Program-made: the position numbers and the translations under genes
Shown: one piece after another, positions 52,392 to 61,908 of the stretch
Layout of the letters: every line of letters begins with the position of its first letter
How positions within the stretch are numbered: the stretch's first letter is position 1
Notes under the pieces: model-generated
What the model was told of the DNA's origin: nothing
The model's input: only the letters and a program-made list of their open reading frames with translations
The model's database searches: none
Assembly (NCBI RefSeq): GCF_014243445.1
Contig: NZ_JACLQD010000002.1
Span: 372,001 to 436,000 of the forward strand
DNA length: 64,000 bases
Direction: 5' to 3'
From: Paragemmobacter straminiformis
GTDB lineage: Bacteria; Pseudomonadota; Alphaproteobacteria; Rhodobacterales; Rhodobacteraceae

Positions 52392-52554
52392 GCGGGCCTT
52401 TTCCGTGCGGTTTGGGCGGTGATAGCGGGCGAAGGCCGCAGGGGGAAGCGCGGCGATGCGGGCCGTGCGGAATGTCGCCAAGGGGGTAAGACTTTTGGCG
52501 CGTAGCGGGGCGGGGCGCGGCTTGCTAGGGTAGGCGCGAGAGCGAGGTGCGGGG

Positions 52555-53241
52555 ATGATGGCGGAAACGGGCGAAAGGGTGCTTCGGTCGGCGCTGATCG
52601 TGGATGACCATCCGCTGTTTTGCGATGCGCTTTCCATGACGTTGCGGGCCGTGGCCGGGATCGAGGAGATCGCGACCGCCGACCGGATCGAGGCCGCGAT
52701 TGCGCGGCTGGATCAGGCCGCCCATCCGGATGTGGTGGTGCTTGACCTCAACCTGCCGGATGTGACGGGGTTGGACGGGTTGATCCGGCTTAAAGCCTCG
52801 GCCCGGGATGTGCCTGTGGTGGTGGTGTCGTCGCTGGCCGACAACCGTGTGATCGGGGCGGCGTTGCGGGCGGGGGCGGCGGGCTTCGTGCCGAAACATT
52901 CGCACCGCGAGGTGTTCCGCGCCGCCTTCGAGGCGATACGGTCGGGGATCGGCTATGTTCCCGAGGGGTTCGTGCCGCAGGGCGACCCCAAGGCACCGGC
53001 GAGCCAGCGCGAGGCGTCGATCGCGCGGCTGGCGCTTTTGACGCGGCAGCAGGCGAAGATCTTGCAACTGATCTGCGAGGGGATGCTGAACAAGCAGATC
53101 GCCTATGAGCTGACGATTGCCGAAACCACGGTAAAGGCGCATGTCACGGCCATCATGCGCAAGCTGGGCGTGCAGAGCCGGACGCAGGCGGTTCTGATCG
53201 CGCGGGAGGCTTCGTTTTCGTCATTGATGCCCGAGGGGTAG
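52555..53241 (+). CDS. LuxR/NarL-type response regulator
   Basis: A 228-residue two-component regulator. The receiver domain covers residues 10-130, with acidic pocket Asp17-Asp18, phospho-acceptor Asp64 in VVLDLNLPDVTG and the Lys of FVPKHSH. A LuxR-type helix-turn-helix covers about 155-220 (LTRQQAKILQLICEGMLNKQ). It is followed after 84 bp by the FIST gene and then a hybrid kinase, its probable partner. Target promoters cannot be read from the sequence; the cox operon downstream is an obvious candidate. Confidence 0.9.
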   Translation: MMAETGERVLRSALIVDDHPLFCDALSMTLRAVAGIEEIATADRIEAAIARLDQAAHPDVVVLDLNLPDVTGLDGLIRLKASARDVPVVVVSSLADNRVIGAALRAGAAGFVPKHSHREVFRAAFEAIRSGIGYVPEGFVPQGDPKAPASQREASIARLALLTRQQAKILQLICEGMLNKQIAYELTIAETTVKAHVTAIMRKLGVQSRTQAVLIAREASFSSLMPEG

Positions 53242-53325
53242 CAGTCGCGAGGGGCGGAGGCCGCGGCAAATTCCGGTTGCGCGTCGGGGCGGGGCTTGTA
53301 GCGTGGCCAAGGGGAGGACGCGCGG

Positions 53326-54486
53326 ATGGAGGCACTTGCAGGGCTGTCGCTGGTGGCGCGGGCTTCGGTCGATGTGGGCGAGGCGCATCCGATCCGTGCG
53401 CTCGAGGCGGCGCTGGGGCCGGGGCCTTTTGCGGTTGTGATCCTGTTCATCTCGCCCGATGTCGACATGGGCCGGCTGGCCGGGCGGATGGCCGACAGGT
53501 TCGGCGGGGCGACGGTGATCGGCTGCACCACGGCGGGCGAGATTTCGGGCGCGGGATACAGCGAGCGCGAGATCGTGGCGGTGGGGCTGCCTGCGGCGCA
53601 TTTCGCGGCGGATGTGCTGCTGGTGCCCGATCTGTCGGTGCTGGAGCGTGACACGCTGATCGGCGAGTTGATCCGGCGCAGGCAGGGGCTGGCGCGGGGG
53701 CGTGCCGGATGGCAGGGGGAATTCGCCTTTCTGATGGTCGACGGGCTTTCGGTGCGCGAGGATGCGCTTGCCTCGGCGCTGGCCAGCGGGCTTGGCCCGG
53801 TGCCGCTGTTCGGGGGCAGCGCGGGGGACGGGACGCGGTTCAAGCAGACCTTCGTGCTGCATGGCGGGCAGGCCTTGCAGAATGCGGCGGTGCTGACGCT
53901 GGTGCGCACCGATTGCCGTGTAAAGGTGTTCAGCCTTGACCATCTGGTGCCGACCGAGAAGCGGATGGTGGTGACAGGGGCCGACCCCGCGCGGCGGATC
54001 GTGCGGACGATCAACGCCGAGCCTGCGGCGCAGGAATATGCGCGGCTCTTGGGCAAGGACCCGGCGCAATTGACCACCTTTACCTTTGCCGCCCATCCGG
54101 TGGTGGTGCGGATCGGGGGCAAGCATCATGTGCGGGCGATCCAGCAGGTGGGAGAGAACGGCGATCTTGTGTTCTTTTCGGCCATCGACGAGGGGGTGGT
54201 GCTGACGCTGGCCGAACCGCAGGACATGGTGGCGCATCTGGCGGCCGAAATGGCGGCGCTGTCGCGGCAGGGGCGGCCCGAGGTGATCCTTGCCTGCGAT
54301 TGCATCCTGCGGCGCATGGAAGCGCAGGAAAAGCAGAAGTCGGGCGCGGTGTCGGCCTTGTTGCGGGAAAACCGCGTGGTCGGCTTTTCGACCTATGGCG
54401 AACAGTTGAATTCCATGCATGTGAACCAGACCATGACCGGGGTGGCGATCTATCCGCCCGAAGGGGGCGGCGCTTGGACACGTTGA
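53326..54486 (+). CDS. FIST domain sensory protein
   Basis: A 386-residue protein with FIST N (about residues 30-220) and FIST C (about 225-365) domains, a sensory module without transmembrane segments. Visible family parts are TVIGCTTAGEISGAGYSE, LFGGSAGDG and, near the end, VVGFSTYGEQLNSMHVNQTM. In several proteobacteria a FIST protein (NosP) is encoded beside a hybrid histidine kinase and controls it in response to nitric oxide through haem. The same arrangement is seen here, but haem binding is not shown by sequence alone. It overlaps the kinase gene by 13 bp. Confidence 0.88.
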   Translation: MEALAGLSLVARASVDVGEAHPIRALEAALGPGPFAVVILFISPDVDMGRLAGRMADRFGGATVIGCTTAGEISGAGYSEREIVAVGLPAAHFAADVLLVPDLSVLERDTLIGELIRRRQGLARGRAGWQGEFAFLMVDGLSVREDALASALASGLGPVPLFGGSAGDGTRFKQTFVLHGGQALQNAAVLTLVRTDCRVKVFSLDHLVPTEKRMVVTGADPARRIVRTINAEPAAQEYARLLGKDPAQLTTFTFAAHPVVVRIGGKHHVRAIQQVGENGDLVFFSAIDEGVVLTLAEPQDMVAHLAAEMAALSRQGRPEVILACDCILRRMEAQEKQKSGAVSALLRENRVVGFSTYGEQLNSMHVNQTMTGVAIYPPEGGGAWTR

Positions 54487-56672
54487 TCAACCCCGCCGAT
54501 CCGCCCGAGCGGCAGGTCGAGAAGCTGCGCACCATCGCGCAGGTCCTGATGCGGCGGGTCGAGCAGATCACCGATGACAGCGGGGCCGCCTATGCCCAGT
54601 TCCAGCGCGCGGCGATGCTGGAGGACCAGGTGCGCGAGCGGACGCGCGATCTGGAGCGGGCGCTGGACCTGTTGAACGAGTCGAACGCGCAACTGGCGCA
54701 GGCCAACCGCGAGACCGAGGCCGCGCGGCAGAACCTTGCCAATGCCATCGAGACGATTCAGGAGGGGTTTGCGCTATTCGATGCGGATGACGTGCTGGTC
54801 ATGTGCAATTCGCGCTTCGGGATGCATATGGCCGATGTGCGCCCGCATCTGACTCCGGGGCTGCGGTTCGGCGATTACGTGGGCCTTGTGAGCCGGTCGC
54901 GGTTTCTGGAACTTCCCGCGGGAGAGCGGCCCGAGGACTGGGCCGTGGGACGGCGGCGGCGGCATCAGGACCGGCATGTCATGTTCAACGTGCGCATGAC
55001 GGGCGATTGCTGGGTGCAGGTGTCCGAACACCGCACCGGCGACGGCGGCACGGTGATCTTGCAGACCGATGTGACCGAGATCATCCGGCTGGAGCGCAGC
55101 GAGCGCGGCAAGATGCTGGACGATCAGGCGCGGGTGATCCGTGCCACGCTCGACCATATCGGGCAGGGGGTGTGCATCTTCGATGCCGACGCGCGGCTGG
55201 TGGGGTGGAACCAGCGGCTGGGGCAATTGCTGGCGATTCCGATGGCGCGGTTCCGGCTGGGGACGGGGTTCGACGCGCTGCTCGACCGGTTCCGGCCCGA
55301 TTTCACCTTTGGCATCGGGATGACCGGCGCGCGGCTGGGGGACTGGGTCGAGGATGCGGCACGGGGGGCGCTGCGCTTCGAGTTGCGGCGGGATGCGGAG
55401 CTGATCCTCGATGTCTTTGCCCAAGGCATGCCGGACGGCGGTTTCGTGATGAGCTTTACCGATGTCACCGCCGAGCGCGCCGCGATCGAGGCGTTGAGCC
55501 GCGCCAACGAGACGCTGGAGGCGCGGGTGATGGCGCGGACGCTCGAACTCGAGGATGCGCTGGGGAATGCGGAGCGGGCCAATGCCTCGCGCACGCGCTT
55601 TGTCGCGGCGGCGAGCCATGATCTGCTGCAACCCCTGTCGGCGGCGAAACTGTTCCTGTCGTCCATCGGGGACGAGGGGCTGACGCCGGTTGCACGGGGG
55701 GCGCTGGACAAGGCGCAGAATGCGCTGGTGTCGGTCGAGGGGATTCTGGCGGCGCTGCTCGACATTTCCAAGCTGGAAAGCGGCAAGGCGGCGGTGTCGG
55801 TGGGGGCGGTGAGGTTGGACCGCTTGCTGGCGCAGCTGAACGACGAGTTCGGGGCGATTGCGGCGGCCAAGGGGCTGGCCTTTCGGGTTGTCGGGTCGGG
55901 GGCGGTGGTGGTTTCGGACGCGGCCTATCTGCGGCGGATCTTGCAGAACCTGATCGGGAACGCGATTCGCTACACCGAGCGCGGGCGCGTGCTGGTCGGC
56001 GTGCGGCGCGCGGGGCCGATGCTGCGGATCGAGGTGACCGACACGGGGCCGGGGATTCCCGAAGAGGCGCAGGACGATATCTTCAAGGAATTCCACCGCT
56101 TGAACGCGCAAGCTTCAGCCAGCGAGGGGCTGGGGCTGGGGCTTGCCATCGTTGAGCGGGCCTGCGCGCTGCTGGGCCATCCGCTGGGGCTGCGGTCGGT
56201 CGTCGGGCGGGGGACGACCTTCATGGTGCAGGTGCCCGCCTATACCGGGGGCGAGGTGCTGGTCGACCGGCCGAAAGCCGAGGCGCCGCAGGGAGCGATG
56301 GAGGGGCGGATCGTCTTTCTGGTCGAGAACGATGCCGACCTGCGGCGGGCGATGGGGCTGCTGCTGGAGAAATGGGGGGTGAGCGTGCTTGACGCGCCCA
56401 GCGGCGAAGCGGCGCTTGAATTGCTCGAGGAGCTGGGCATACTGCCGGATTGTTTCCTTGTGGATCAGGACCTTGGCGCGGGGATGGACGGGATTTCCTT
56501 TCTGGCGCGGGTCAGGGCGGTGCATGGCGCGGTGCCGGCGCGGCTGGTCACGGCGATGCGCGGGGCCGCGTTCGACGCGCGGGTTCAGGCGGCCGGAGTG
56601 GCGGTGATGGCCAAGCCCATCGACGCGCGGGCCTTGCAGGATTTCATCGCGGGGCTGGCCGTTCACGAATAG
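54474..56672 (+). CDS. hybrid sensor histidine kinase with PAS_7 domains
   Basis: A 732-residue cytosolic hybrid kinase. Order: N-terminal coiled coil (about residues 10-90), two PAS_7 domains (about 90-210 and 225-340, each opening with a pattern like EGFALFDADDVLVMCNSRFG), HisKA with His382 in SHDLLQPLSAAK, HATPase (NLIGNAIRYTERG, DTGPGIPEE), and a C-terminal receiver with probable phospho-Asp664 in FLVDQDLGAGMDG. The start is the TTG at 54474 with AAGGGGGCGG before it, inside the end of the FIST gene, so the two are translationally coupled. An internal ATG about 24 codons further on is possible. Confidence 0.9.
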   Translation: MDTLINPADPPERQVEKLRTIAQVLMRRVEQITDDSGAAYAQFQRAAMLEDQVRERTRDLERALDLLNESNAQLAQANRETEAARQNLANAIETIQEGFALFDADDVLVMCNSRFGMHMADVRPHLTPGLRFGDYVGLVSRSRFLELPAGERPEDWAVGRRRRHQDRHVMFNVRMTGDCWVQVSEHRTGDGGTVILQTDVTEIIRLERSERGKMLDDQARVIRATLDHIGQGVCIFDADARLVGWNQRLGQLLAIPMARFRLGTGFDALLDRFRPDFTFGIGMTGARLGDWVEDAARGALRFELRRDAELILDVFAQGMPDGGFVMSFTDVTAERAAIEALSRANETLEARVMARTLELEDALGNAERANASRTRFVAAASHDLLQPLSAAKLFLSSIGDEGLTPVARGALDKAQNALVSVEGILAALLDISKLESGKAAVSVGAVRLDRLLAQLNDEFGAIAAAKGLAFRVVGSGAVVVSDAAYLRRILQNLIGNAIRYTERGRVLVGVRRAGPMLRIEVTDTGPGIPEEAQDDIFKEFHRLNAQASASEGLGLGLAIVERACALLGHPLGLRSVVGRGTTFMVQVPAYTGGEVLVDRPKAEAPQGAMEGRIVFLVENDADLRRAMGLLLEKWGVSVLDAPSGEAALELLEELGILPDCFLVDQDLGAGMDGISFLARVRAVHGAVPARLVTAMRGAAFDARVQAAGVAVMAKPIDARALQDFIAGLAVHE

Positions 56673-56743
56673 CTGTTTACGACCATTGTTCCATTGCGCG
56701 GTTGCGCGGGCCGCTTAGACTTCGGTCAAATTCAGGGGGGACC

Positions 56744-57271
56744 ATGCAGCTATCCGACCACCGAGACATCAAGGCCGATCCGCAAACGGTATGGGCCGCG
56801 ATCCTGAACCCAGATGTGTTGAAAGACTGTGTGCCCGGTTGCGAAAGCATGACCGGAACGCCGGACACGCAATTCGAGGCCGTGGTGACGCAGAAGGTCG
56901 GGCCGGTAAAGGCCACCTTCAAGGGGATCGTCACCCTGTCGGACATGGTGCCGGGCCAGAGCCTGCGGATCAGCGGCGAGGGCAAGGGCGGGCCTGCGGG
57001 CTTTGCCAAGGGCGGGGCCAATGTCACGCTGACCGCGACCGAGACCGGCACGCGGCTGAGCTACGAGGTCGAGGCCAGCGTGGGCGGCAAGATCGCCCAG
57101 CTGGGCAGCCGGATCATCGACGGCTTCGCCAAGAAGATGGCCGATGAATTCTTCACCCGCTTCCAGGAGGCAATCGAGGGGCCTGCCGTGGAAGAGGCGT
57201 CCGACGAGGCCGCCGGGGGCGAGGGCGAGGGCGAAAAGAAAAAGGGATGGTTCAAGAAGCTGATCGGCTGA
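56744..57271 (+). CDS. coxG: CoxG family protein (SRPBCC fold)
   Basis: A 175-residue CoxG/SRPBCC protein of carbon monoxide dehydrogenase clusters. The START-like fold spans residues 1-145 (DPQTVWAAILNPDVLKDCVPG is the family signature). An acidic Glu/Gly linker follows, ending in KKKGWFKKLIG, a basic-aromatic tail suited to peripheral membrane contact. In Oligotropha CoxG has been linked to membrane recruitment of CO dehydrogenase. AGGGGGG stands before the ATG. First gene of the cox operon, 71 bp after the kinase. Confidence 0.9.
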   Translation: MQLSDHRDIKADPQTVWAAILNPDVLKDCVPGCESMTGTPDTQFEAVVTQKVGPVKATFKGIVTLSDMVPGQSLRISGEGKGGPAGFAKGGANVTLTATETGTRLSYEVEASVGGKIAQLGSRIIDGFAKKMADEFFTRFQEAIEGPAVEEASDEAAGGEGEGEKKKGWFKKLIG

Positions 57272-57307: not shown

Positions 57308-57793
<486 letters not shown>

Positions 57794-57814: not shown

Positions 57815-60193
57815 ATGCCGAAGGATTACGGGATCGGCGCCAGTTCGAAACGGCGCGAGGATGTCCGCTTTCTGAGCGGGCTTGGCAATTATACCGATGA
57901 CGTGGTGATCGCGGGGCAGACCTATGCGGTCTTTGTCCGTTCGACCGTCGCGCACGGGCGGATCAAATCGGTGGGCACGGCCACGGCTTCGGCCATGCCG
58001 GGGGTTCTGGCCGTGTTCACGGGCGAGGATTTCAAGGATGTCGGCGGCAACCCTGCGGGCTGGCTGATCAACAGCCGCGACGGCACGCCGATGCGCGAAC
58101 CCAAGCGGCCCGTGCTGGCGCATGGCAAGGTGCGCCATGTGGGCGACGCCTATGCCGCCGTGGTGGCCGAGACCTTGCAGCAGGCGAAGGACGCCGCGCA
58201 AGTCATTGCAGACGAAACGGAAATCGAGGAGCTGCCCGCGATCGTCGACATGGCGCAGGCCTTGGCCGATTCGTCCAACCGCGTGCATGACGAGATTCCG
58301 GACAACCAGTGCTTTGACTGGGGCTGGATCGAGGACAACCGCGCCGCGACCGAGGCTGCGTTCAAATCGGCGCCGCATGTGACCACGCTTGAGCTGGTCA
58401 ACAACCGTCTGGTGCCGAACGCGATGGAACCGCGCGCCAGCATCGGCGAGTATTTCCCCGGCACGGGCGACTACAAGCTGACCACGACGAGCCAGAACCC
58501 GCACCTGACGCGCCTGCTGATCGCGGCCTTCGTCATGGGGATTCCCGAGAACAAGCTGACCGTTGTCGCCCCCGATGTGGGCGGCGGGTTCGGGTCGAAG
58601 ATCTATCATTACGGCGAAGAGGCGCTGGTTCTGGCGGCGGCGAAAAAGATCAAGCGCCCCGTCAAATGGGTGGCCGAGCGGTCGGAAAGCTTTTTGTCGG
58701 ATGCGCATGGCCGCGACCATGTGACCAAGATCGAGCTGGCGTGCGACAAGCAGGGCAATTTCCTTGCCTTCCGCACCTCGACCATGGCCAACGTGGGCGC
58801 CTATCTGTCGAACTTCTCGACCGCGACGCCGACCTTCCTGCATGGCACGCTGATGGCCGGCCCCTACAAGGTGCCGCATGTCTATGTGAACGTGAAGACC
58901 GTGTTCACCAATACCGCGCCCGTGGATGCCTATCGCGGTGCGGGGCGGCCCGAGGCGACCTACAGCCTTGAACGGGTGATCGACAAGATGTGCCGCGAGC
59001 TGAACCTCGACCCGTTCGAGGTGCGTCGCAAGAACTTCCTGACCACGGACATGTTCCCCTATACCACCCCGGTCGGGCTGGTTTACGACACCGGCAACTA
59101 TCAGGCGACGCTGGACAAGGCGATGGAGCTGGGCGATGTGGCCGGCTTCGAGAAGCGCCGCGTCGAGAGCGCCAAGCGCGGCAAGCTGCGCGGGATGGGG
59201 CTTTCGACCTGGATCGAGGCCTGCGGTATCGCGCCGTCGAACCTTGTCGGCATCCTTGGCAGCCGCGTCGGGCTTTACGATGCGGCGACGGTGCGGGTGA
59301 ATGCCACCGGCAACATCAGCGTCATGACCGGGGCGCACAGCCACGGGCAGGGGCATGAGACGGTCTTTGCGCAGGTCGTGGCCGAGCAGTTGGGGATTCC
59401 CGAAAGCTCGATCGAGATCGTGCATGGCGATACGTCGAAGATCCCGTTCGGCATGGGGTCTTACGGGTCGCGCAGCCTTGCGGTCTGCGGCACGGCGATG
59501 ACCAAGGCGGTGGACAAGATCATCGCCAAGGGCAAGAAGATCGCGGCCCATATGCTGGAAGCGGCCGAAGGCGACATCACCTTTGCAGACGGCAAGTTCA
59601 GCGTGGCGGGCACCGACAAGGCCAAGACCTTCGGCGAGATCGCCTTCTCGGCCTATGTTCCGCACAACTACCCGCTCGAGACGCTGGAACCGGGTCTGGA
59701 AGAGACGGCCTTCTATGATCCGGCCAACTTCACCTATCCGGCGGGCGCCTATCTGTGCGAGGTCGAGGTCGATGCCGAGACCGGCAAGGTCGAGGTCTGC
59801 TCGTTCACCTGTGCCGACGACTTCGGGAATGTGATGAACCCGATGATCGTGGAGGGGCAGGTGCATGGCGGCGTGGGGCAGGGGATCGGGCAGGCGCTGC
59901 TCGAGAACACCTCCTATGACGAGAACGGGCAGTTGCTGACCGGTTCCTACATGGACTATGCCATGCCGCGCGCGGATGACGTGCCGTTCTATACGGTCGA
60001 CGCCTCGTGCATCACGCCCTGCACGCATAACCCGCTGGGGGTGAAGGGCTGCGGCGAGGCGGGGGCGATCGGTTCGCCGCCGGCGGTGGTGAACGCGGTG
60101 ATCGACGCGCTGCATCGTGGCGGGCATACGCACGTCACCCATATCGACATGCCTGTCAGCCCCTCGCGGGTCTGGTCGGCGATGAACGCCTGA
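57815..60193 (+). CDS. coxL: form II CO dehydrogenase-like large (Mo) subunit
   Basis: A 792-residue molybdopterin-binding subunit. The active-site loop reads AYRGAGR at residues 372-378, the form II signature, instead of AYxCSFR of true form I CO dehydrogenases. The Cys that carries copper in form I is therefore absent. The catalytic glutamate is Glu748 in GCGEAGAIGSPP. GGGFGSKIYHYGEEA and GQGHETVFAQVVAEQLG are Mo-cofactor segments. Form II enzymes may oxidise CO slowly or another substrate altogether. GGGGAGGAAACC gives a strong ribosome-binding site. Confidence 0.93.
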   Translation: MPKDYGIGASSKRREDVRFLSGLGNYTDDVVIAGQTYAVFVRSTVAHGRIKSVGTATASAMPGVLAVFTGEDFKDVGGNPAGWLINSRDGTPMREPKRPVLAHGKVRHVGDAYAAVVAETLQQAKDAAQVIADETEIEELPAIVDMAQALADSSNRVHDEIPDNQCFDWGWIEDNRAATEAAFKSAPHVTTLELVNNRLVPNAMEPRASIGEYFPGTGDYKLTTTSQNPHLTRLLIAAFVMGIPENKLTVVAPDVGGGFGSKIYHYGEEALVLAAAKKIKRPVKWVAERSESFLSDAHGRDHVTKIELACDKQGNFLAFRTSTMANVGAYLSNFSTATPTFLHGTLMAGPYKVPHVYVNVKTVFTNTAPVDAYRGAGRPEATYSLERVIDKMCRELNLDPFEVRRKNFLTTDMFPYTTPVGLVYDTGNYQATLDKAMELGDVAGFEKRRVESAKRGKLRGMGLSTWIEACGIAPSNLVGILGSRVGLYDAATVRVNATGNISVMTGAHSHGQGHETVFAQVVAEQLGIPESSIEIVHGDTSKIPFGMGSYGSRSLAVCGTAMTKAVDKIIAKGKKIAAHMLEAAEGDITFADGKFSVAGTDKAKTFGEIAFSAYVPHNYPLETLEPGLEETAFYDPANFTYPAGAYLCEVEVDAETGKVEVCSFTCADDFGNVMNPMIVEGQVHGGVGQGIGQALLENTSYDENGQLLTGSYMDYAMPRADDVPFYTVDASCITPCTHNPLGVKGCGEAGAIGSPPAVVNAVIDALHRGGHTHVTHIDMPVSPSRVWSAMNA

Positions 60194-60208: not shown

Positions 60209-60997
60209 ATGCATAACTTTGACTTCGTGAAGCCCTCGTCCATCGCGGAAGCGGTGAAGGCCCTGTCGAACGAGGGCGCGCAGGCGCTGTCGGGCGGGCA
60301 GACGCTGACGCCGACGATGAAGCAACGGCTTGCCGCACCGAGCGTGCTGGTCAGCCTGACCGGAATCGCCGAGATGAAGGGTGTCTGCCTTGGCGATGAC
60401 GGGCTGAGCATCGGGGCGGCGACGCCGCATGCGGTGGTTGCCGCCGAGGCGGCCAAGCACTATCCGGCGCTGGCCGCACTGGCGGGGGGCATCGGCGATC
60501 CGGCGGTGCGCAACCGCGGGACCATCGGCGGGTCGCTGGCCAACAACGACCCTGCCGCCTGCTATCCGGCGGCGGTGCTGGGGTCGGGGGCGACGGTCGT
60601 GACCAACAAGCGCAAGATCGCGGCGGACGACTACTTTCAGGGCATGTTCACGACGGCGCTGGAAGAGGGCGAGATCATCACCGGTGTCACCTTTCCCGTG
60701 CCGGAGAAGGCCGCCTATGTGAAGTTCAACCAGCCCGCCAGCCGGTTCGCGCTGACCGGCGTGTTCGTTGCCAAGTTCAAGGGCGGCGTGCGCGTGGCAG
60801 TCACGGGGGCGTCGAACAACGGCGTCTTCCGCTGGAGCGAGGGCGAGTCGGCGCTGTCGTCGAACTTCTCGGGCGCTGCGGTGGCGGGGCTGAAGGTGGA
60901 TGCCGCCGAGATGATCGGCGACCTGCACGGCACGCCCGAATACCGGGCGCATCTGGTGAAGGTGCTGACCAAGCGCGCTGTCGACGCGGCGCGCTGA
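60209..60997 (+). CDS. coxM: CO dehydrogenase-like medium (FAD) subunit
   Basis: A 262-residue flavoprotein subunit, slightly short for the family. The FAD signatures ALSGGQTLTPTMK near residue 30 and the IGDPAVRNRGTIGGSLANND block near 95-115 are intact. It takes electrons from CoxS. Last gene of the operon, followed by a terminator. The coxD/E/F or xdhC-type maturation genes that often follow are not present. Confidence 0.93.
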   Translation: MHNFDFVKPSSIAEAVKALSNEGAQALSGGQTLTPTMKQRLAAPSVLVSLTGIAEMKGVCLGDDGLSIGAATPHAVVAAEAAKHYPALAALAGGIGDPAVRNRGTIGGSLANNDPAACYPAAVLGSGATVVTNKRKIAADDYFQGMFTTALEEGEIITGVTFPVPEKAAYVKFNQPASRFALTGVFVAKFKGGVRVAVTGASNNGVFRWSEGESALSSNFSGAAVAGLKVDAAEMIGDLHGTPEYRAHLVKVLTKRAVDAAR

Positions 60998-61323: not shown

Positions 61324-61908
61324 ATGGACGGCGATTTCAGGACACAGTTCGTAAGGGATCCGGCGGCGCTGAAGCATTATCCGGCTTTGGTGCTGAACGC
61401 CGATTACCGGCCGCTCAGCTACTACCCGCTGAGCCTTTGGCCCTGGCAGGAGGCGATCAAGGCGGCCTTCCTCGACCGTGTGCAGATCGTGGCGGAATAC
61501 GACCATGTGGTGCGCAGCCAGAGGCAGGAGTTCCGCATACCCTCGGTCGTGGTGCTGAAAGAATTCGTCAAACCCCAGAAGCGCGTGGCCTTCACGCGCT
61601 TCAATCTTTTTCTGAGGGACGAGTTCTGTTGCCAGTATTGCGGCGCGAAGGGGGATCTGACCTTTGACCATGTGTTGCCGCGGTCGCGGGGCGGGGTGAC
61701 GAGCTGGGAGAATGTGGTGGCGGCCTGTAGCCCCTGCAACCTGCGCAAGGGGTCCAAGACGCTGCGGCAGGTGGGAATGCATCTGCGCCGCCCGCCGCGC
61801 CAGCCTTCGGCCGAGGAGATGCAGTCGCACGGGCGGCGCTTTCCGCCGAACCATCTGCACGAGAGCTGGATGGATTACCTCTACTGGGACGCCGAACTGG
61901 ACGCCTGA
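61324..61908 (+). CDS. HNH endonuclease domain protein
   Basis: A 194-residue protein with an N-terminal region (ALVLNADYRPLSYYPLSLWP) typical of the chromosomal alphaproteobacterial HNH family and an HNH domain at about residues 98-150. The domain shows CCQYCGAKGDLTFDHVLPRS and CSPCNLRKG, giving two CxxC zinc pairs and the catalytic DH. It is a stand-alone chromosomal family rather than an intron-homing or restriction enzyme; its natural substrate is unknown. No mobile-element remnant lies nearby. Confidence 0.86.
   Translation: MDGDFRTQFVRDPAALKHYPALVLNADYRPLSYYPLSLWPWQEAIKAAFLDRVQIVAEYDHVVRSQRQEFRIPSVVVLKEFVKPQKRVAFTRFNLFLRDEFCCQYCGAKGDLTFDHVLPRSRGGVTSWENVVAACSPCNLRKGSKTLRQVGMHLRRPPRQPSAEEMQSHGRRFPPNHLHESWMDYLYWDAELDA

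Follow-up and report, generated by a model that had tools for sequence, protein, structure and literature searches.

A FIST-containing two-component cassette and a predicted operator associate form II cox genes with pyrroloquinoline quinone alcohol oxidation in Rhodobacterales

Introduction

What does a FIST-containing signalling cassette control when it stands directly in front of a form II cox operon? The question is raised by a 64,000-nucleotide stretch of Paragemmobacter straminiformis (contig NZ_JACLQD010000002.1, positions 372,001 to 436,000), here called the window. In it, a LuxR-type response regulator, a FIST protein and a TTG-started hybrid histidine kinase lie head to tail, the kinase start overlapping the FIST stop by 13 bp (54474-54486). 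The first gene of a molybdenum-hydroxylase (Mo-hydroxylase) operon, coxG, begins 71 bp after the kinase stop, and the regulator, FIST, kinase, coxG, coxS, coxL and coxM genes share the + strand. The initial annotation had described both the trio and its position before the operon, and our coordinates and domain matches agree with it. It had also stated that FIST (NosP) and kinase pairs sense nitric oxide (NO) elsewhere; in the literature, NosP proteins of other bacteria are described as sensors of NO or heme (PMC8846402, PMC11237717, PMC13259868).

Form II cox genes are widespread in the order, a coxL relative with an E-value of 1e-150 or better being present in 238 of 292 genomes (paralogues counted), yet the activity of the enzyme is described as unresolved in the excerpt of PMC13240472, and carbon monoxide (CO) is probably not its substrate (PMC6794299, in the part cited). 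With a regulator, an operator and a set of partner genes defined, the role of form II cox becomes directly testable. From the analysis below, control of cox by the cassette is well supported by computation. We consider it probable that the three genes form a two-component system of the ErdR/NosP/ErcS type, and that its regulon in Rhodobacterales joins pyrroloquinoline quinone (PQQ) alcohol oxidation with form II cox.

Results

Linkage of the cassette and cox

A FIST relative is found in 139 of the 292 genomes of the order, and a sample of the class contains a FIST relative, at an E-value of 1e-60 or better, in 20/385. The loci were split into group A, with 110 loci including the window and a FIST identity of about 47% or more, and a divergent group B, with 20 sampled loci at about 38-46%, which was kept out of the group A counts; the 47% boundary was set by eye among the matches listed. 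Loci from named genomes, the best 80 of 198, are outside the 110-locus tallies and inside the motif training and the gap counts, and therefore close copies are present in the latter two.

The trio is intact in 105 of the 110 group A loci. The cox genes lie within 1.5 kb of the cassette in 30 loci, at 1.5-12 kb in 28 and nowhere in the fetched span in 52, i.e. the two are linked in 58/110 loci and in 38 of 61 genera. Nine of the 30 close cases repeat the head-to-tail order of the window and the other 21 are divergent, so the link survives rearrangement. Both arrangements occur in Rhodobacter, Tabrizicola, Defluviimonas, Cereibacter and further named loci, and in two of the close loci (L058, L136) coxG alone is present. 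Because the arrangement recurs in related genomes it is more than chance, and the possibility that cassette and cox are not co-conserved was rejected, although not all loci show the linkage. The gene order regulator-FIST-kinase-coxGSLM, which the initial annotation suggested following across Rhodobacterales, fared less well: the linkage recurs, but the exact order is one of several and is limited to the nine head-to-tail cases.

Two records titled Exiguobacterium profundum (CP059262.1) and Enemella evansiae (JAFKDC010000022.1) contain a cassette of the Rhodobacterales type, which suggests wrong labels or contamination.

A predicted operator before coxG

Comparing the regions upstream of coxG revealed a conserved block, TACGACC-WW-GGTC-N2-ATA, which in most cases lies 66-73 bp 5' of the start codon. 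A matrix was trained on 110 distinct coxG upstreams and used with a threshold score of 10. The threshold is reached by 101/110 of the training sequences (in-sample) and by 4/110 shuffles, where shuffling preserves single-base composition only. Out of sample, the operator is found upstream of 49/52 PQQ alcohol dehydrogenase (PQQ-ADH) genes (shuffles 0), 48/48 pedF genes (shuffles 0) and 43/50 pedA1 genes (shuffles 1), the divergent gap being common to pedA1 and pedF. Upstreams of the response regulator reach the threshold in 55/186 cases (shuffles 4/186) and those of sbp3 in 1/45 (shuffles 0); pedF and sbp3 share a strand and are 0-153 bp apart in 46/46 loci, and the same is true of sbp3 and coxG, 10-108 bp apart in 30/30.

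The site before coxG scores 22.5 in the window and the runner-up 13.2. In the window genome (G000) and in genome G094 the coxG site is the only match to the pattern genome-wide with at most one mismatch, while matches with two mismatches are about as frequent as for a reversed control pattern (3 vs 3 and 2 vs 1, respectively). A -10-like block at columns 39-44 after the operator start is conserved in coxG and PQQ-ADH promoters alike. The four printed CrbR/ErdR ACTU sites of P. fluorescens score 10.3-17.9 with the coxG matrix (permutation means -22.6 to -26.3), and the predicted sites at the target promoters appear to be of the ACTU type of ErdR/CrbR. The weak site before the regulator gene (Table 1) would allow for autoregulation, which is possible.

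The operator follows the cassette

By computation, the presence of the operator depends on that of the cassette. In genomes without a FIST match, 0/24 cox promoters reach a score of 10 and the best scores 6.0; these promoters were taken before coxG in 4 genomes and before coxS in the 20 where coxG was not found upstream. Where a group A cassette is present and cox lies outside its span, 14/20 promoters score at least 10 and 10/20 at least 15, and for the linked loci the numbers are 48/56 and 45/56, with 42/49 at threshold under stricter filters. Fisher's test on 14/20 vs 0/24 gives p 3e-7 and for the coxS-first operons (8/13 vs 0/20) p 9e-5, both ignoring kinship; counted by genus (7/12 vs 0/17) the value is 5e-4. 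The operator was also considered as a motif of every cox promoter in the order, and this was rejected on the 24 cassette-less promoters.

Congeners differ accordingly: the site is found in five genomes with the cassette, G073 (28.1), G099 (25.8), G171 (23.7), G084 (19.5) and G209 (20.8), and the cox promoters of the cassette-less G172, G106, G243, G104 and G096 are without it. Genome G059 has the cassette and its cox promoter scores 8.5, below the threshold. Zero-mismatch matches occur in 20 genomes across the order, and 20/20 have a FIST gene. The 13 genomes with only a group B cassette have no match with up to two mismatches within 5 kb 5' of the best coxL, the nearest being at 5.4 kb (G235); among the matches listed, this search found three of five positive controls, G082 having more mismatches and G131 not being among them.

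PQQ alcohol-oxidation genes around the cassette

In all 28 loci with cox at 1.5-12 kb, the span contains ped-like genes (PQQ ethanol dehydrogenase, PedF, PQQ-ABC), located beside or between cox and the cassette. Locus L044 has in this place genes for a PQQ alcohol dehydrogenase (TIGR03075, 775 bits), a PedF cytochrome c-550, an SBP_bac_3 protein and the PQQ-ABC transporter genes with beta-propeller and binding proteins. The nearest solved structures of this dehydrogenase are the quinoprotein ethanol dehydrogenases 6zcv/6zcw, which we take to be PedH, and its WDYDG stretch is presumably the lanthanide-type signature. A plasmid of Ruegeria sp. SCSIO 43209 brings together coxL, coxS, coxG, SBP, pedF, ABC genes, PQQ-ADH, regulator, FIST, kinase, DUF779 and an aldehyde dehydrogenase; plasmids of Shinella sp. 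HZN7 and Paracoccus pantotrophus have PQQ-ADH with the cassette and no cox within the stretch viewed.

Among the 292 genomes, 102 have a PQQ-ADH and 98 of these also have a FIST gene (kinship ignored). A search of the window genome found no PQQ-ADH above the cut-off and no PQQ-ABC propeller. In the 38 group A genomes without PQQ-ADH, cox is beside the cassette in 19 and not in 19; as half of them keep the adjoining cox, the cox enzyme seems to be useful without a PQQ dehydrogenase. Genome G094 has two FIST cassettes, one of group A beside cox (C4:1552437) and one of group B (C4:1234251), the latter near a PQQ-ADH (1222272) and a glutathione-dependent formaldehyde dehydrogenase (1220320).

The group B loci (L112-L131, e.g. 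L113 and L131) are divergent second cassettes with a FIST protein about 40% identical, and the one at L113 stands beside MoxR-type AAA, VWA and PqqE genes. A pqqC gene of PQQ biosynthesis (368 bits, cut-off 240) is found 3' of the kinase at L055 (2297-3022, minus strand) and at about eight similar loci.

Family assignment and features of the locus

The FIST protein has NosP (NF041558) as its sole NCBIfam match, with an E-value of 9e-118, and its 393.5 bits do not reach the cut-off of 450. The best match of the regulator is ErdR/CrbR, far from the cut-off as well (Table 1), and the kinase misses both NahK/ErcS' families, with 341 bits for NF041832 (cut-off 400) and 389 for NF041831 (cut-off 1500). 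Three FIST residues, C67, C326 and H365, are invariant in 115/115 aligned sequences of groups A and B and may serve to bind a ligand or to sense redox state.

CoxL carries the AYRGAGR motif of form II, and the form I motif (A/S)YRCS(F/L)R is absent (motif definitions as excerpted from PMC13240472). Aligned to solved CO dehydrogenases, AYRGAGR stands opposite AYRCSFR of 1ffu and 1n5w. Its two top NCBIfam matches, both below cut-off, are the large subunits of CO dehydrogenase (643 bits) and glyceraldehyde dehydrogenase (628 bits).

In five loci (L033, L036, L177, L209, L219) CoxL is only 67-69% identical to that of the window while CoxS is 85-89% identical; in the comparison loci L034, L039 and L042 CoxL is 88% identical. 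A possible reading of these identities is that coxL was exchanged while the operon around it stayed conserved.

The features are collected in Table 1. Right after coxM, at 61324-61908, lies an HNH endonuclease-like gene that is kept beside cox in the nearest relatives; it has a weak IscB match (42.8 bits vs a cut-off of 175).

Table 1. Genes and predicted regulatory sites of the cassette and the cox operon in the window.
Feature	Position	Strand	Basis
Weak operator-like site, 51 bp 5' of regulator start	52487..52504	+	matrix score 12.9
LuxR-type response regulator, ErdR-like	52555..53241	+	Response_reg + GerE domains; NF041830 ErdR 163 bits, cut-off 390
FIST N + FIST C protein, NosP-like	53326..54486	+	FIST 154 bits, FIST_C 79 bits; NF041558 393.5 bits
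Hybrid histidine kinase, NahK/ErcS'-like, TTG start	54474..56672	+	PAS_7 (two stretches), HisKA, HATPase_c, Response_reg receiver
Predicted operator of the regulator, TACGACCATTGTTCCATT	56678..56695	+	matrix score 22.5, best of the window; 66 bp 5' of coxG start codon
Candidate -10 region of coxG promoter, CTTAGACT	56714..56721	+	operator distance common to coxG and PQQ-ADH promoters
coxG-like protein	56744..57271	+	COXG 102 bits
coxS, [2Fe-2S] subunit	57308..57793	+	domain match
coxL, form II Mo-hydroxylase large subunit	57815..60193	+	AYRGAGR motif
coxM, flavin adenine dinucleotide (FAD) subunit	60209..60997	+	domain match

Discussion

The results suggest the following mechanism. A cue would be sensed by FIST together with the hybrid kinase and its PAS domains; most likely it is an aldehyde derived from an alcohol, or a state of alcohol oxidation. 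The kinase, judging by its domains, would hand the phosphate to the LuxR-type regulator. The regulator would then bind TACGACC-WW-GGTC-N2-ATA just 5' of the promoter and activate coxGSLM. Where a genome has genes for a PQQ ethanol dehydrogenase, for PedF and for the PQQ-ABC transporter, predicted copies of the same operator precede these as well, and the regulator would induce this alcohol dehydrogenase set along with the Mo-hydroxylase. On this model, form II Cox would most likely be an oxidoreductase of aldehydes or related carbonyls.

Of the gas- or redox-responsive control of cox that the initial annotation had proposed, the control itself is borne out, since the cassette is tied to the operon by linkage and by a cassette-dependent operator before coxG. 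The sensing of a gas (NO or CO) or of the redox state gained no support here, considering the association with PQQ-ADH, the formaldehyde systems of the same gene order and the NosP score of the FIST protein.

Several observations weigh against the regulon as we propose it. No cox is present in the fetched span of 52 cassettes, and in 31 of the 110 the span is free of cox and of ped genes alike, the neighbours looking lineage-specific; cassette-free cox operons are common, too. Of the 20 cassette genomes with distant cox, six are below the threshold (G265, G121, G141, G129, G038, G123), four of the 14 positives are weak (10.3-12.8) and all from one genus, and 8/56 linked loci are without the site at threshold. 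The pairs test of PQQ-ADH presence against cox within 1.5 kb has eight supported pairs, too few to decide; on average 1.2 of them agree with the expectation, 0.2 oppose it and 6.6 show no difference. The same holds for the test of cassette against motif on the short coxS tree, with two supported pairs and averages of 1.9 expected and 0 opposite. The curated cut-offs of ErdR, NosP and NahK are all missed. Finally, a review proposes, in the part cited, that the PP_2663-PedS1 pair of Pseudomonas senses NO instead of or besides alcohols (PMC12997753), which speaks against an alcohol or aldehyde as the signal.

That proposal also belongs to an alternative in which FIST works as a true NosP, either binding heme and NO or detecting heme, and the cassette switches the cox and alcohol genes in response to NO or heme. 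NosP is the only family matched, the FIST and kinase genes overlap as in nosP-nahK pairs, NosP-kinase signalling by NO or heme is known in other bacteria (PMC8846402, PMC11237717, PMC13259868, as excerpted), and a histidine and two cysteines are invariant. We regard such a switch as unlikely, as the NosP cut-off is not reached, gene context and operator point to PQQ alcohol oxidation and cox, and systems of the same gene order answer to formaldehyde (PMC4776306, in the section cited).

It is less probable still that the operator is genuine but served by another ErdR-like regulator, with the adjoining cassette having a different job. The CrbR/ErdR ACTU motif is similar, related regulators may coexist, and some cassette genomes are without the site. 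Against this stand the cassette-less cox promoters, none of 24 carrying the site, its absence at the distance searched from the 13 group-B-only genomes, and the congeners that differ in the site as they differ in the cassette.

Hitchhiking, where cassette and cox are neighbours through shared ancestry and the motif is kept merely because the locus is kept, seems very improbable. Neighbourhoods are common to related genomes, and the independent-pairs tests had few supported pairs (8 and 2). The site is nevertheless retained at cox operons and PQQ-ADH genes elsewhere in the genome, and in G015, G041, G114, G255, G066 and G159 a match with zero or one mismatch precedes a PQQ-ADH gene that is remote from the cassette, so that local hitchhiking is rejected as the source of the motif; moreover, cassette-less relatives lack the site and the linkage persists through changes of orientation. 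We give hardly any credence to a cox operon encoding a CO dehydrogenase under a CO- or redox-responsive cassette: CoxL is homologous to a solved CO dehydrogenase (8uem, E 8e-175) and coxG is present, but the form II motif stands in place of the cysteine-bearing form I motif and the linked genes are those of alcohol oxidation.

Returning to the regulon of PQQ alcohol oxidation and form II cox, we put forward a more specific version only tentatively. In Rhodobacterales, cassette-linked form II cox may not be a CO enzyme and may instead supply the aldehyde oxidation of a PQQ alcohol-oxidation regulon, probably of the lanthanide type. A FIST-containing ErdR-type system would govern it through one shared operator, with FIST as the sensor of an alcohol-derived aldehyde and with the regulator and cox pair occurring in some lineages without the PQQ dehydrogenase. 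The cassette family and the matching operator suggest that alcohol or aldehyde metabolism is the likeliest role of this puzzling enzyme, and together with the partner genes the regulator and operator hint that FIST-kinase systems in Rhodobacterales are induced by something other than NO. Among the papers that searches of an open-access library brought up, judged by titles and the beginnings of abstracts, apparently none describes a link of form II cox to FIST or PQQ alcohol dehydrogenase, which does not prove its absence from print.

Comparison with known systems

In gene order, the cassette equals the regulator-T-kinase systems of the same host order. AfdR-AfdT-AfdS, RfdR-RfdT-RfdS (Rhodobacter sphaeroides) and FlhR-orf2-FlhS (Paracoccus denitrificans) act in formaldehyde control, and adhI expression with formaldehyde was unchanged in an rfdT mutant (PMC4776306, excerpt). 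The published target is adhI, and cox is unmentioned in section 21 of that paper. From its position, the T gene of these systems may encode a FIST protein.

The Pseudomonas ped cluster resembles the Rhodobacterales loci in content. According to the excerpted review, PP_2663 (NosP-like), PedS1 (ErcS'/NahK) and AgmR occur with PedABC, PedF and PQQ-ADH genes (PMC12997753). The NosP-like protein there adjoins the hybrid kinase and, with it and the LuxR-type regulator, stands amid PQQ alcohol oxidation (PedF, PedA2, PedB, PedC and PQQ dehydrogenases). The counterpart in P. aeruginosa, on the same partial source, is nosP-nahK/ercS'-erbR. In the part of the source cited, the cluster differs from the window in gene order and in the cytosolic aldehyde step, which is the NAD aldehyde dehydrogenase PedI where the set of the window has form II cox.

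The regulator of the window is nearest to ErdR, and the predicted operator fits the four ACTU sites, which likens the system to CrbS/CrbR (MxtR/ErdR). The targets of CrbS/CrbR are acetate genes. CrbS has a transporter-like SLC5 domain and is not known to have a FIST partner. At P. fluorescens acs, in the published part available, the ACTU repeat at -52 to -36 is needed for CrbR-dependent activation, the other three printed sites being predicted; the operator of the window likewise lies just 5' of the putative promoter.

NosP-NahK-NarR of Legionella and NosP-NahK of P. aeruginosa share the FIST protein and kinase with the window and are the best family matches, but the window proteins score below the NosP and NahK cut-offs. 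The partner in the window is a DNA-binding regulator, whereas that of Legionella is, in the excerpt cited, a cyclic di-GMP enzyme.

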